A stretch of 64,000 nucleotides of DNA from a virus: the IMG/VR virus record IMGVR_UViG_3300017917_000733, positions 1 through 64,000 of that record, one strand, 5' to 3'. This document shows positions 3,199 to 9,048 of the stretch, piece after piece. The position numbers and the translations under genes were made by a program. The first letter of the stretch is position 1. Each line of letters begins with the position of its first letter. The notes beneath the pieces are model-generated. The model did not search any database. It saw only the letters and a list, made by a program, of their open reading frames with translations, and had not been told where the DNA came from.

Positions 3199-3206
3199 TA
3201 TTTATG
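3199..3206 (-). promoter_or_regulatory. Candidate late promoter before the 74-codon gene
   Basis: Minus strand CATAAATA, overlapping the portal gene stop codon at 3202-3204. Using the usual spacing from a T4 late octamer to the start site, transcription would begin about 2 bases before the ATG at 3191. Confidence 0.45.
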
Positions 3207-4968
3207 CCAATCCACCAGGTGTAGCCGGTGCTCCAGCAGCGCCTGGCTCAGTTCCTACTGGTCCTGCTACTTCGGGTCCTTCTTGCCCTTCAGGCGGTGG
3301 CGTTTCCATAGTATCAGCCATTTCAGCATCAGCTTCCATGTCTCCTACACTAACGCCTACGCTACGTAAGTCACTACCTTGTGGTTCGATTTCATCATCT
3401 TTGTCGTTTTCTTCACGCCATAATGTTTCGTTCTTACTGATTTCTTCTTCAGTCAAGCCCAAGAAACGTTCTAGTGCAAAACGCTTACTGATATATGGAT
3501 ACGCTTCCATAGTACTGAAAACATTAACTCGTGCACCATCAAGCTCACTTTGACGATATGCAGCAAAGTTTTGTGGGGGATTGAACTCTAATGTGAACAA
3601 TCCGCTATCGATGTTAAAACCTCTCCAGCGCAAGAATAATTTGAATTCTTCGTCTAGTTTATGAGAGATATAATTCTGTAGTCGTTCGCAATATTGATTA
3701 AAACGATATTCCTGAATTAATGCTGTTCCAACTCGTCCATCATTAACAACTCTGTCGCTATCATCGGGACCTGTGGGTAAGTATGAACTTGGGATACGCA
3801 AACCACGTGCTAATCTGTTGTTGAAATAACGCAAATCGTCAATTTCACCTAAGTTTTGTCCACCTGGTAATGTTGTAACGTCAGATCCACGACCGTCAGC
3901 AGTGACTGGGAAGAAGTAATCTTCGTTCATCGACAATGGGTTATATGTTGCATCTAATACTGATTGTCCACCTTGACTACTTGGAATACGTCTTTGGTGA
4001 ATTTCGTTCTTAATACGCTCAACAAACGCCATAGCCATATGACTTGGCATATTACCAACGTCAATTTTGAATACTCTGCGCTCAGGTGCTCGTTGTACAC
4101 GATAGATTAAGATAGCATCTTCTAATAATTCTTTTTGTTTGAAAACTTTGAAGATGTTTTCTAGGATACTTTGTCCAAAAGGCCAGAATCTGTCCAAACC
4201 TTCTGTTAAACTTAAATGAACAACGTGTTTAGCATCGACTGCACTTTCACTTTGACCTAATGTAAAACGGCTACCTGTTGTATTATATGGCATAGCAGGA
4301 ACTGTGTATGGAGTGTTAGTTCCACCACCAGAACCACCTAGACCAGTTGCAGGGTTAGCTGCAAAGTCTGTGTTTGTTTTAGTTGCAACTGTTAAGTTTT
4401 GTAAGTTAATGTTAATGTCTTTGATAACATATTGTTCAGGCTTCTTACCTTCACTTTCGTTAACAATAACTTTAATAACTTTAACCATATCGACCCAATA
4501 TAATTTGAAGTTCTCTGGGTCACGAACAAAAACCTGATCTCCGTACTTTACAGTGTTACGGAATATCTTAAAGATACGTGTGTCAAATTCATTTAGCTTG
4601 CACCATTGCTGTAATTGTGTCTTTAACAATTCGACTTCGTGCTGAGTTGGATCTTGTTTAAAGTTTAAGTTGAATGGTGTTTTATTGTGTTCATTCTTTT
4701 GTGTACAGAATTCAGCTAGAATATCTAAACATGCGTTGATTTCAGCATCAACATCCATCATTTCATACTGGTTGTATCGTTCAATACGGTTTGGGTGACC
4801 AGTATAGACTTCAGGAAGTCTGGACATATAATTCTTATAGCCAAACTCAGTGTTGTTCCAGTTATCGGATTGTCCTGGGCCTGCATTCCATGCACCGCTG
4901 TTACTATTTGCACCAGAAATAGGGCTAGATATACCAGCCTTGTTTGTAAATCTTCTTTTGTAAGTCAT
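3202..4968 (-). CDS. 20: Portal vertex protein gp20
   Basis: The 588-residue product is the T4 gp20-type portal, a dodecameric ring at one capsid vertex through which DNA is packaged and to which the neck and tail attach. T4 gp20 has 524 residues. Recognisable features are the N-terminal block with MSRLPEVYTGHPNRIERY and the following DVDAEINACLDILAEF helix (about residues 48-90), a stem/crown region with RVQRAPERRVFKIDVGNMP (about 293-311), and the segment LPTGPDDSDRVVNDGRVGTA. The last 50 residues are a flexible Pro/Gly/Glu-rich tail. Gene order (20-67-68-21-22-23) is that of T4. No clear Shine-Dalgarno precedes the ATG; a late octamer lies 14 bases upstream. Confidence 0.95.
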   Translation of the reverse strand: MTYKRRFTNKAGISSPISGANSNSGAWNAGPGQSDNWNNTEFGYKNYMSRLPEVYTGHPNRIERYNQYEMMDVDAEINACLDILAEFCTQKNEHNKTPFNLNFKQDPTQHEVELLKTQLQQWCKLNEFDTRIFKIFRNTVKYGDQVFVRDPENFKLYWVDMVKVIKVIVNESEGKKPEQYVIKDININLQNLTVATKTNTDFAANPATGLGGSGGGTNTPYTVPAMPYNTTGSRFTLGQSESAVDAKHVVHLSLTEGLDRFWPFGQSILENIFKVFKQKELLEDAILIYRVQRAPERRVFKIDVGNMPSHMAMAFVERIKNEIHQRRIPSSQGGQSVLDATYNPLSMNEDYFFPVTADGRGSDVTTLPGGQNLGEIDDLRYFNNRLARGLRIPSSYLPTGPDDSDRVVNDGRVGTALIQEYRFNQYCERLQNYISHKLDEEFKLFLRWRGFNIDSGLFTLEFNPPQNFAAYRQSELDGARVNVFSTMEAYPYISKRFALERFLGLTEEEISKNETLWREENDKDDEIEPQGSDLRSVGVSVGDMEADAEMADTMETPPPEGQEGPEVAGPVGTEPGAAGAPATPGGLA

Positions 4969-4991: not shown

Positions 4992-7400
4992 TTAAACACG
5001 TGAATAAGTTAATATTGATTCTTGAATATCTTTGGTTGAACTCATAATATCAATCATCTGATTAAACTTATCAGTCATAGTTTCTATCATAGATACCATA
5101 ACCTCCGACGATGCATTTGAATTAGATCCTAATGCACTTGACAACTCTGTAGGTAAACTTGTCTTAGACGGTGTTTCATAACCATCTGGTAAGGGGATAA
5201 CCATTTCTGTACCATGTAACATTGCAGGGTAACCCAAGTTTGAGCCACTAAGAATTCCACCGTATCTTGCTTCTACTATTTTACCTTGTTTAAATCCTTC
5301 AACTTTTTCCATTGCAGCAAGCATTGCTTTTCGCTGTGATTGATCCAAATCGGCTACTCTTGTATCAGGGCTTGCACCAGTTGCTGAGAGTACATTTTTT
5401 AGATAAGATAATGTATCATTTTCACCAGACGGAGCATATTTCGAAATTGCATCTGCAATTGATAACCCAGCATAACTCTTACCAAATAATAACGCTGTTC
5501 GGGCCTGATCACCTATTTCTTTAGTAGGAAATATTGCAAAACGACCGTCAGAACCAATAGCTCCTTGGCTTATAGCAAATTTTCCATACTCTATATTACC
5601 CGGGTTATTATTGCGCCATGCTCTAGTTCCTTCTCGTCGTTGCTTAGTCCCGTCGCTAGCTTCAACTACATTAAATCCTGAACCAGTTTCCAATACTTGT
5701 GCTATTGGTTTTTCAGTGCTAGATTTTCCTGTAACAGTAGGTTCACTACCAGCGCCTGGCATATCCGGTGAAAGAGATTTCAGTGCTCTACCTAAAAGTG
5801 TTTTAGATGATGCTGCGCTACGAGCGGCATCATCCTGTCCGCCACCTGAACCACTGCTTTCAGAAAAAAGACCCGGTAACATTCTTTTTAATGCATCAAC
5901 CCAATAATTTAAAACATTTCCAAATACTTCAACTGTTTTAGCGACTGCTCTTAATGCAATAGAAACGGGACCTGATGTGACTCTAACTAATTCGTCAAAT
6001 GCTTGCTTTAATTCTCTTTCAGATTCAAGTTGTGCGTTACGTAAATCTTTTGCTGCATCCCCTTGTGATTTTGCAGTGTCCAAATCTTTTTGCAATTGTT
6101 CCAAATATTTTTGCTGCTCTTCGGCTGTCATCTTTTGGAAACGTTCGTATACTAAAGCCTGTTCACGTGCTTTATTAGATATTCCAAAAATCTTTTGAAA
6201 TTCTTTACTTGCTGGTCCTAATGCATAAGCAGTTTCACCGAATTGCTTTCTGAAATTTTGTACGGCTTCATAGTTTTGCTTTAGCATTTCCATTTGAACT
6301 TTTAATGGATCTTCACCTCTACGTAACATCTCATTGATTTTTTCGTAGTTTTGACCAGTCATTGCAAGAAATGCATTGTTTTCAGTCAAAACCATACCTG
6401 ATTTATTAGTGATTGATTCTAACTTACCTATAGCAGAGGTGGCATCGTTAGTTGCTACAATGTTAGCAGCTATAATTCTAGTGCTCTTTGCTTGATTGTC
6501 TAATCGTTCAGCTTCTGCCTGTAAACTTTTTTTACGGGCCTGATCTTGTTCTTTGTTAGCTTGTCTCAACAACTCAGCACGTTCTAATTCCAAATCATTA
6601 ATAAACGCATTGACGTTTTCATTGGCTTGTGCTAATTCCAACGCTTTCTGCTGTTGTTCAACATCATTACCAGTAAGTGCAGCTAACGTTGTTAGTTGTT
6701 CAATATACGCTAATGTTTCTTTTTGTAGTTGTCTTGGTGATTTTGCCAAAGAACCACCAGTTTCGGCTATCTGTTTAACATAACGACTTTGTATTTCTGT
6801 TACTTCTTCTTGGCTGAAACCCAAATTACGTAATGATTCACGCTGTTCTCTAGATAGTGCTGCAATTTGAGCAAACGCCTTAACACCATTACCTGTTGTA
6901 TTTCCCAATATAGTAAGGCTACTACCTAAACTTCTAGCATTTTTGTACAATGATTCCAATGACTGTGAAGTATACCCTGCTTTTAGTCCCATGTTTAAAA
7001 CATCACTAGTTGATGTTCCCAATGAGGCACCAAACTTACTCAAACCGTCATATGACTTTAAGATTGCATCATTTTGCTTTAATACAGCTTCAGCTAGTTT
7101 AGTGAATGCCAATGTTCCTATTTCTACAGCTTTACCTAAGGCACCAAAAGATCCAGCAAGGGAGCCTACACTTTTCCCTACAGTGTTAACTACCCCTGAG
7201 TATTTGGACATACTATTGTCAGTTGACATAATAGTACTACCAAGTTCGGTAAGACCCTTTTTAACGGCACTAAATGATGTTCTTCTTATATCATCATTTC
7301 CCCTTTGGTCGTCAGCCATTCTTTTAAAGGCTTCGGTCGTAGCGGATAACTGCTCAGTCAGTTGTCGCAACGCTTCTTCGGTGTTTAAATTATCAGCCAT
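4992..7400 (-). CDS. Tail tape-measure protein with C-terminal NPGNI (P5-like muramidase) domain
   Basis: The 802-residue protein has the layout of a tape measure: a helical N-terminal half (to about residue 470) with hydrophobic Gly/Ala/Ser-rich stretches and coiled coils. Near the C-terminus is the segment GGILSGSNLGYPAMLHGTEM followed by VIPLPDG, a signature typical of tape-measure C-termini. Between them (about residues 590-690) is a globular region opening with RNNNPGNIEYG, the motif of the phage structural protein P5-like lytic family, which may help the tail cross the cell wall. In T4 the tape measure is gp29 and lies elsewhere. Here the gene is divergently placed next to gp26/gp51, proteins thought to act as its assembly chaperones. 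Enzyme activity of the NPGNI domain is inference; no catalytic residue can be assigned by eye. Confidence 0.75.
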   Translation of the reverse strand: MADNLNTEEALRQLTEQLSATTEAFKRMADDQRGNDDIRRTSFSAVKKGLTELGSTIMSTDNSMSKYSGVVNTVGKSVGSLAGSFGALGKAVEIGTLAFTKLAEAVLKQNDAILKSYDGLSKFGASLGTSTSDVLNMGLKAGYTSQSLESLYKNARSLGSSLTILGNTTGNGVKAFAQIAALSREQRESLRNLGFSQEEVTEIQSRYVKQIAETGGSLAKSPRQLQKETLAYIEQLTTLAALTGNDVEQQQKALELAQANENVNAFINDLELERAELLRQANKEQDQARKKSLQAEAERLDNQAKSTRIIAANIVATNDATSAIGKLESITNKSGMVLTENNAFLAMTGQNYEKINEMLRRGEDPLKVQMEMLKQNYEAVQNFRKQFGETAYALGPASKEFQKIFGISNKAREQALVYERFQKMTAEEQQKYLEQLQKDLDTAKSQGDAAKDLRNAQLESERELKQAFDELVRVTSGPVSIALRAVAKTVEVFGNVLNYWVDALKRMLPGLFSESSGSGGGQDDAARSAASSKTLLGRALKSLSPDMPGAGSEPTVTGKSSTEKPIAQVLETGSGFNVVEASDGTKQRREGTRAWRNNNPGNIEYGKFAISQGAIGSDGRFAIFPTKEIGDQARTALLFGKSYAGLSIADAISKYAPSGENDTLSYLKNVLSATGASPDTRVADLDQSQRKAMLAAMEKVEGFKQGKIVEARYGGILSGSNLGYPAMLHGTEMVIPLPDGYETPSKTSLPTELSSALGSNSNASSEVMVSMIETMTDKFNQMIDIMSSTKDIQESILTYSRV

Positions 7401-7467: not shown

Positions 7468-8295
7468 ATGGTAAATCCAAATAACCCGTTAAAACAATTT
7501 TTCCGTAAACCAGCTGTGTATCTTAGATTACCTTCAGGAGGCAACTATGCACCTGGTGTAATTAACATGCCTGAAAACGGTGAGCTTCCTATATATCCAA
7601 TGACTGCGTTAGACGAAATCACAGTAAGAACACCTGATGCATTGTTCAACGGAGAAGCCGTATCTAGTGTTATTAGAAGTTGTGCCCCTAACGTTCTTGA
7701 TCCTTGGCGCCTTAATAATATAGATTTAGATGCTCTTTTGATATCTATACGTTCAGCTAGTGAAGGCAGTGAATTAGAAATAGACACTGTTTGTCCTAAC
7801 TGCAATGAAGAGGCCAAATATGGATTAAACTTAACTGCATGTTTAAGCCAATTGTCAATTAATGCATATCAAAATGAATTATCTTTAGGTGATTTGGCGA
7901 TTAAATTCAAGTCCTTGACTTATAAAGAAATCAACTACATAAACAATAAACAGTTTGAGATACAGAAATTATATACTCAAATTGAGAACATTCAAGATTT
8001 GGAAGAAAAATCAAAAAGAACCAAAGATATTTTTGTTCTAATCAATGAAGCTACTAACGTTGCGTTAGCAAAATCCATTGAATATATTAAAACCCCAAGT
8101 AGTGTAGTTACTGAACAAGAGTTCATACTTGAATTTCTATTAAATTGCGACAGTAATACATATGAAATTATAAAAGAGGAAAATGTATCTATTAAGAAAA
8201 ATTCAGAGATACAACCTTTAGATATCAAATGTATACATTGCCAACACGAATATAAACAACTGTTCACATTCAACATGTCTGATTTTTTCGGTTAA
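7468..8295 (+). CDS. 26: Baseplate hub assembly protein gp26 (tape-measure chaperone type)
   Basis: The 275-residue product matches the T4 gp26 family of marine phages. The N-terminal part contains RKPAVYLRLPSGGNY and the segment LPIYPMTALDEITVRTPDAL, which are family hallmarks. Two CxxC pairs, C109/C112 (CPNC) and C255/C258 (CIHC), could bind one zinc ion. gp26 acts in hub assembly; with gp51 it is regarded as a chaperone around the tape measure. The frame ends DFFG-stop at 8295, but the last codons contain a slippery heptamer (8283-8289) followed by a stem-loop, so part of the ribosomes probably continue in the -1 frame into gp51. The start has GAGG upstream. The neighbouring divergent gene is the tape measure. 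Confidence 0.85.
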   Translation: MVNPNNPLKQFFRKPAVYLRLPSGGNYAPGVINMPENGELPIYPMTALDEITVRTPDALFNGEAVSSVIRSCAPNVLDPWRLNNIDLDALLISIRSASEGSELEIDTVCPNCNEEAKYGLNLTACLSQLSINAYQNELSLGDLAIKFKSLTYKEINYINNKQFEIQKLYTQIENIQDLEEKSKRTKDIFVLINEATNVALAKSIEYIKTPSSVVTEQEFILEFLLNCDSNTYEIIKEENVSIKKNSEIQPLDIKCIHCQHEYKQLFTFNMSDFFG

Positions 8296-8519
8296 GGCTT
8301 CTATCCCTTGACCCCCAAGGGATCAAGAAGCTAATCGATAATATGGAAAAAGAATGTTCTGATATAAAGCGCAATGCATTACAGCTTGCGTGGTACATGA
8401 GGGGAGCAGTCAGTTATACTGAAGTTTTGAATATGTCCGCAGAGGAACGAAACCATATTAATAAATTGATAGAAACTAACTTAGAAACTACTAAGAAATC
8501 AGGTCTACCATTCTTCTAA
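7468..8519 (+). CDS. Predicted gp26-gp51 frameshift fusion protein
   Basis: Predicted -1 frameshift product: 274 residues of gp26 through the TTC codon at 8287-8289, then 76 residues read from 8289 in the -1 frame, 350 in all. The joint reads SDFF-RLRLLSLDPQGIKKL and continues into the gp51-like segment. The -1 frame is fully open from the slippery site to the TAA at 8517-8519, including the 54 bases before the first gp51 ATG, which have no other coding explanation. This mirrors the G/GT tail-chaperone arrangement of lambda and many other tailed phages, made next to the tape-measure gene. The existence of the fusion is inference from sequence signals. Confidence 0.65.
8283..8330 (+). promoter_or_regulatory. 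Programmed -1 ribosomal frameshift signal
   Basis: Slippery heptamer T TTT TTC at 8283-8289 in the gp26 frame, 3 bases before its stop codon (TAA 8293-8295). After an 8-base spacer (8290-8297) comes a stem-loop: outer stem CTTC 8298-8301 with GAAG 8327-8330, inner perfect 8-bp stem ATCCCTTG 8303-8310 with CAAGGGAT 8316-8323, and a 5-base loop ACCCC. Heptamer, spacing and stimulatory stem are all as expected for -1 frameshifting, and the -1 frame opens into gp51. Confidence 0.75.
8343..8519 (+). CDS. 51: gp51-like baseplate hub assembly protein (58-codon reading frame)
   Basis: From the first ATG in this frame the product is 58 residues, MEKECSDIKRNALQLAWYMR onward, ending TTKKSGLPFF. That ending and the preceding WYMRG..SY.EVL.MS.EER pattern are what small marine T4-like proteins annotated as hub assembly catalyst gp51 look like. 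T4 gp51 itself is much longer (249). No Shine-Dalgarno precedes the ATG and the bases before it form the frameshift stem, so independent initiation looks poor. The segment is probably made mainly as the C-terminal part of the gp26 frameshift product. Function in helping tape-measure/hub assembly is inferred from family and neighbours. Confidence 0.65.
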   Translation: MEKECSDIKRNALQLAWYMRGAVSYTEVLNMSAEERNHINKLIETNLETTKKSGLPFF

Positions 8520-8556: not shown

Positions 8557-8624
8557 CATCTTTTTTCTTTTAAAGATGAACTTCGTTCATCTAGAACTTC
8601 GCTATCGCTCAGTTCTTATTTTTA
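8557..8624 (+). terminator. Terminator zone with three hairpins after gp51
   Basis: Hairpin 1: CATCTTT 8557-8563 / AAAGATG 8572-8578. Hairpin 2: GATGAAC 8575-8581 / GTTCATC 8585-8591, loop TTC. Hairpin 3: AGAACT 8593-8598 / AGTTCT 8611-8616, followed by TATTTTTA. Hairpins 1 and 2 share 8575-8578 and cannot both form. Hairpin 3 with its T-run looks like an intrinsic terminator for the gp26/gp51 message; on the minus strand the same stems could end the candidate RNA coming from the right. Confidence 0.55.
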
Positions 8625-8640
8625 CGGTAATCTATTGTCT

Positions 8641-9030
8641 AGTACTTTCTTTAATTATTACATTAAGGAATACATATTGCCGCTTTGAAGCCATGGTAGT
8701 GCTATTCAGCACCACCAATGGTTAAGGGTACACTTGCCATGCCCGTCATCCATAGTCACTTATGCCCGTACTGTCGCCGTCTTTGCTGACACAATACGCT
8801 ACCGGTTGCTCTGTAAAGTTTATGGCCTGTAGTGTAGCCATGTATTCTCTAAGTAATACACGCTACCGCAACGCACATTCTATAACATCAAAGTGAAATA
8901 GTTATAGACTTGTTGAGTGTTCGCTTTGTCGATTGCACTCTCGGTATTCCAAGACTCTCACGAATCTCGCATACTCCAGATCCATCGGCGTTATTCACGC
9001 TTCTTCAAGGAGGTCCTGCAGCCAGGACGA
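8641..9030 (-). ncRNA. Candidate large structured non-coding RNA, family not recognised
   Basis: About 390 bases without any reading frame of note on either strand, noticeably richer in G+C than neighbouring genes and packed with stems. In plus coordinates: GTCCTG 9013-9018/9023-9028; GCGT 8988-8991/8997-9000; AGACTC 8952-8957/8962-8967 inside GTAT 8944-8947/8971-8974; GAGTG 8915-8919/8936-8940; an 8-bp stem 8879-8886/8901-8908; a two-layer hairpin 8834-8838/8862-8866 over 8841-8846/8855-8860, closed by GTTGC 8805-8809/8868-8872; and a 13-bp hairpin 8691-8703/8708-8721 with one bulge. In two stems a G-U pair on the minus strand would be an A-C mismatch on plus, and one minus-strand loop is GUGA (GNRA type), so the RNA is read leftward. 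It follows the nuclease gene. Short direct repeats: ATGCCCGT at 8740 and 8762. No tRNA, tmRNA, RNase P, 6S or group I core was recognised. It could belong to, or resemble, the ornate phage RNAs (GOLLD/ROOL type). Confidence 0.55.
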
Positions 9031-9048
9031 CAAATTTTTACTTTAAAA

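Follow-up and report, generated by a model that had tools for sequence, protein, structure and literature searches.

Does a T4-like phage from the environment make two tail assembly chaperones from a single gp26-like gene, by slipping into the -1 frame near the end of that gene? Frameshifting of the G-T type is widespread in long-tailed phages 'except T4' (Atkins et al. 2016, PMC5009743). The question is raised by a gene in the stretch of 64,000 nucleotides analysed here, positions 1 to 64,000 of IMG/VR record IMGVR_UViG_3300017917_000733 (hereafter the window). From comparison of this locus with its relatives we propose, with a probability of about 0.88, that programmed -1 frameshifting on gp26 yields proteins of 275 and 350 aa, the probable short and long forms of a tail assembly chaperone.

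The gp26-like gene and its surroundings

The elements on which this reading is built are the following.

7468..8295, plus strand: gp26-like gene with a 275-aa 0-frame product, probable TAC-N and 'G' equivalent (PF12322, phrog_150, AlphaFold/BFVD matches)
8283..8289, plus strand: slippery heptamer T TTT TTC in the gp26 frame (same heptamer in 91 of 91 distinct relatives)
8289..8519, plus strand: -1 frame extension, 76 residues and a stop, probable TAC-C and 'T' equivalent (open conserved frame, codon-position bias)

The gp26 gene is 828 nt long and positions 8281-8295 read GAT TTT TTC GGT TAA in its frame, the heptamer being separated by 3 nt from the stop TAA at 8293-8295, exactly as in the original prediction. 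The -1 frame is free of stops from 8283 to 8516 and closes at 8517-8519. Reading through it confirmed the anticipated fusion of 350 residues (274 + 76), against 275 for the 0-frame product. The extension has the sequence RLRLLSLDPQGIKKLIDNMEKECSDIKRNALQLAWYMRGAVSYTEVLNMSAEERNHINKLIETNLETTKKSGLPFF.

The 0-frame product matches Pfam T4_baseplate PF12322 (E 5e-14, 52.8 bits, curated cut-off 24.5), the single match to this family in the whole 121 kb record, as well as phrog_150 'baseplate hub' (E 2e-16). Its AlphaFold model (pLDDT 88) retrieves T4-like baseplate hub and hub assembly proteins from BFVD (best E 4e-22), and found no significant fold match in the PDB (none below E 0.59). By its sequence, the gp26 product is a member of the T4 gp26/gp51 baseplate family. 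The extension is modelled as all-helical (AlphaFold, pLDDT 90); this model gave no significant fold match in BFVD, and direct searches of Pfam, NCBIfam and the PDB with the 76-aa sequence gave no credible match.

Two minus-strand genes lie on the other side of gp26.

4992..7400, minus strand: tape-measure-like gene, 802 aa, adjoining the gp26 gene and divergent from it (phrog_2276 tape measure, E 3e-19)
3202..4968, minus strand: portal protein gene, gp20-like, of T4-like context (Portal_T4 PF07230, E 6e-106)

The tape-measure neighbour expected from the first reading of the sequence is thus present, and gp26 adjoins it as looked for in a G/GT pair, though on the opposite strand. The counterpart of this 802-aa gene bears the annotation 'tape measure' in Erwinia phage pEa_SNUABM_47, and in RaK2 its similarity to a tape measure is recorded. 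The order portal, tape-measure-like gene, then divergent gp26 with a small frame is common to Eneladusvirus, Mimasvirus, Asteriusvirus, Alcyoneusvirus and other jumbo phages. Residues 582-724 of the tape-measure-like product match phrog_873 'endolysin' (E 6.5e-22) and perhaps form a peptidoglycan-degrading domain.

Conservation of the heptamer and of the extension

A DNA-level search of the phage collection returned no relatives; these were therefore gathered from viral contigs and isolates by protein searches, giving 92 distinct loci, window included. The heptamer TTTTTTC stands in the gp26 frame of all 91 distinct relatives as in the window, at gp26 identities of 29-58%, and its distance to the stop varies from 3 to 33 nt across the 92 loci. 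The -1 frame has a length of 70-77 codons in all 89 full-length relatives and in the window (90 sequences), two of the 92 loci being left out of this count as they are cut by contig ends. Relatives devoid of the heptamer or with a -1 frame interrupted by stops, which the original prediction had named as observations that would speak against it, were thus not encountered. Phenylalanine codons elsewhere in the same gp26 genes are mixed, 423 TTT for 228 TTC, yet the order T + TTT + TTC at the slip site never changes, so that the conservation of the heptamer exceeds chance. The idea that a sequencing error or a decayed gene splits the two frames is excluded by the relatives and keeps practically no probability: the identical break is found at the identical place in the 91 other sequences, complete isolate genomes among them, and we found no point in its favour.

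The peptide encoded in the -1 frame right after the slip is conserved (FFRx[RKQM]LL..., an invariant R coming first and xRLL-like residues after it); the 0-frame residues past the slip are variable and terminate at differing points among relatives. Over codons 1-18, ahead of the first ATG of the window, sequence pairs diverge by 0.38/0.26/0.55 at positions 1/2/3 of the -1 codons; over codons 19-76 the values are 0.36/0.23/0.57. Since this bias is equal before and after the ATG, the stretch preceding it looks translated in the -1 frame and joined to gp26. With the extension as tblastn query, Atu_ph07 and Phosso match starting at residue 1.

These observations bear on a simpler arrangement, in which the downstream frame is a separate gene, expressed without fusion from its own start or by termination-reinitiation at the gp26 stop. 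Public annotation is on its side, the extension being given as a separate hypothetical gene or as 'gp51' in 121Q, KVP40, S-PM2 and others, and so are the 11 of 90 sequences in which -1 codon 2 is an ATG that overlaps the stop (ATGA) and the TAATG of some isolates. However, the first ATG in the window occurs only at codon 19 (position 8343), with no Shine-Dalgarno-like 4-mer found before it, in agreement with the earlier remark that the gp51 ATG has no ribosome site. Across the 90 sequences, first start codons are spread over codons 2-37 and an SD-like 4-mer is present in only 9/90, which is far from the clear independent initiation that would have favoured a separate gene. Moreover, this arrangement does not account for a -1 peptide conserved ahead of any start, and leaves the invariant heptamer unexplained. 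We consider it very unlikely and retain frameshifting, to which coupled re-initiation may add in some phages.

As to annotation, the -1 extension at 3828-4040 of the Klebsiella phage RaK2 (locus L013) is wholly unannotated. Most other isolates list it as a hypothetical gene of its own, and public annotation thereby misses the fusion.

A stem-loop under selection downstream of the heptamer

The heptamer is followed by a structured element.

8296..8332, plus strand: predicted stimulatory stem-loop (outer stem 8296-8302/8326-8332, inner helix 8303-8310/8316-8323, loop 8311-8315, spacer 6 nt)

The perfect 8-bp core had been located exactly in the original prediction, whereas the outer stem, described there as 4 bp, comprises 7 pairs, including one G-U, plus a 2-nt bulge. 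As it starts at 8296, the spacer of 8 bases also has to be corrected to 6 nt. The 63 nt from 8283 to 8345 fold at -25.3 kcal/mol, whereas shuffled versions average -10.6 (z -5.6). Over 76 distinct sequences whose extension is of the 76-codon type, the mean folding energy of the 50 nt past the heptamer is -14.5 kcal/mol, compared with -10.9 after synonymous-codon shuffles between these sequences (z -13.9); in the same test a control stretch later in the -1 frame gives a z of -1.7. Outer stem pairing is observed in 88% of cells in the 76 sequences, with a few double changes. The inner helix, taken in one fixed register, shows a small excess over synonymous shuffles, and this low z of 2.4 is due to the helix register varying between sequences; given this variation, the folding-energy test was preferred over the fixed-register pairing test. 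The RNA stem is under selection beyond protein coding.

In the 121Q-type phages and in loci L003-L005, folding past the heptamer is weak or absent and not unusual. Thus, the stem is a feature of the clade of the window and is not universal, and alignment of the gp26-gp51 junctions, proposed at the outset in expectation of a conserved heptamer followed by a stem, recovers the first in all relatives and the second in this clade. There, the 3' stimulatory structure looked for in a G/GT pair is present. Not every frameshifted tail-chaperone family member needs a 3' RNA structure.

The stem is also informative about the level at which slippage would occur. RNA polymerase could slip on the T6 run and alter the frame in the mRNA itself, and the invariance of the six-T run among relatives would be compatible with this. 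Yet the C closing the heptamer never varies either, and a stem-loop kept by selection 6 nt further on suits ribosomal slippage; six T are, besides, short for efficient transcriptional slippage. We therefore hold transcriptional slippage to be very improbable, and infer from the sequences that ribosomal slippage takes place at T TTT TTC.

A candidate structured RNA beyond the extension, and other RNA elements

Beyond the extension, the minus strand of the gene-free stretch 8561-9046 carries a candidate RNA of about 400 nt, conserved in 75 loci of the clade of the window, with 65 consensus pairs of which 42 display double compensatory changes. This stretch matched nothing in either Rfam 15 or the phage collection, and the candidate was not found in 121Q-type phages or in L003-L005. 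The covariation suggests a large structured RNA that has not been described before. A short perfect hairpin at 8573-8592 (AGATGAACTTCGTTCATCT), between convergent units, is kept by compensatory changes in relatives and is possibly a two-way terminator; it was not listed by a simple terminator scan. In L003, a viral contig of the same group, positions 6510-6645 on the minus strand match the Rfam Polynucleobacter-1 RNA RF01718 at 121 bits, indicating that this RNA family can be phage-borne.

Proposed mechanism

Ribosomes translating gp26 would meet T TTT TTC with the stem-loop 6 nt ahead. The majority would stop 3 nt further on at the TAA, giving the 275-aa protein, while in a minority both tRNAs would slip back one base, re-pair on TTT TTT and read 76 more codons, giving the 350-aa protein. 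By analogy with lambda gpG/gpGT, both products would act on the neighbouring tape-measure protein and the extension would recruit the tail tube protein. The two proteins would probably be the short and the long form of the tail assembly chaperone and correspond to gp26 and gp51 of T4. This assignment is based on gene position, on protein family and on the published identification of T4-like tail assembly chaperones, as related by the citing papers PMC10885494 and PMC12846349.

T4 and other T4-like phages

Synechococcus phage S-PM2, Vibrio phage KVP40 and Delftia phage phiW-14 also have TTTTTTC 3 nt before the gp26 stop, and their open -1 frame is annotated as a short 'gp51' or hypothetical gene; in Sinorhizobium phage phiM12 the heptamer reads TTTTTTT. 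According to Sullivan et al. 2010 (PMC3037559), gp51 of cyanophages and of marine vibriophages is without the first ~200 residues. Going by the sequences, such truncated-looking gp51 proteins are what annotated frameshift extensions would look like.

T4 possesses two full separate genes, gp26 and gp51, where the window has one gene and a frameshift. The T4 genes are on opposite strands, both proteins belong to PF12322, gp51 has ~48 additional C-terminal residues, and the -1 frame past gp26 is closed. Since T4 gp26 and gp51 are both homologues of the N-terminal part, the counterpart of T4 gp51 is the whole fusion and not the downstream segment alone. The original view of gp26/gp51 as the G/GT equivalent fits position and family, provided that gp51 is equated with the fusion. 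The downstream segment had been called gp51-like; its frame is indeed open, but its likeness to gp51 in sequence is weak. A profile of the fusions is collinear with the gp51 family to the C-terminus at an hhalign probability of 21% (E 1e-3), and in this weak overall match SYEDILNMSSEER of the extension falls opposite YSLNSI..MIP.ER of gp51. Of 53 extensions, a single one reached phrog_150, at E 0.02, and nothing could be learned from hhalign comparisons of gp26 by itself with individual T4 proteins.

We are somewhat inclined to suppose that a single gene frameshifted at T TTT TTC is the ancestral source of both tail chaperones across all T4-like phages, including the clade of the window, 121Q-type jumbo phages, cyanophages, KVP40 and phiW-14. 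The separate gp26 and gp51 of T4 would then be derived: the gene would have been duplicated and fused in frame, and the slip site lost afterwards.

Comparison with known systems

If the proposed frameshift operates, a large unannotated environmental T4-like group would make two tail chaperones from one gene. The loci assembled here form a strong comparative data set for an arrangement long held absent from T4. They also offer an explanation for the truncated look of 'gp51' in cyanophages and marine vibriophages, and for the annotation of the extension as a separate hypothetical gene. The abstract of Vladimirov, Gautam and Davidson (Virology 2022) is said to give genes 26 and 51 as the T4 pair, with frameshifting kept in several T4-like groups.

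The frameshifted gp26/gp51 arrangement has already been published for T4-like phages (Vladimirov 2022, as relayed by citing papers). Of these, PMC12846349 names poly-T stretches as known -1 signals of the TAC-N genes in T4-like phages, and PMC10885494 reports that in some T4-like phages a short gene and a longer fused gene take the place of the frameshift. The chaperones so described share with the window the family PF12322/phrog_150 and poly-T slip signals. The contribution of the present analysis lies in the extent of the data set, in the selection acting on the RNA stem and in the occurrence of the arrangement in this environmental clade.

S-PM2 and KVP40 resemble the window by TTTTTTC 3 nt ahead of the gp26 stop and by the open -1 frame, but differ by the sequence of the extension and by gene order, a large downstream gene being on the same strand. 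The TAC frameshifts of Pakpunavirus and Andersonviridae display a similar -1 frame, conserved over 200 nt, with the downstream ORF annotated 'hypothetical'; they belong to other phage families and use the slip sequence GTTTTT (PMC12846349). Lambda gpG/gpGT is alike in that one gene adjoining the tape-measure gene gives a short and a long product, the ribosome slipping into the -1 frame close to the end of the gene. No resemblance to lambda gpG/gpGT in sequence or fold emerged, however, and the tape-measure gene of the window is divergent, on the opposite strand. The slip heptamer is G GGA AAG in lambda and T TTT TTC in the window.
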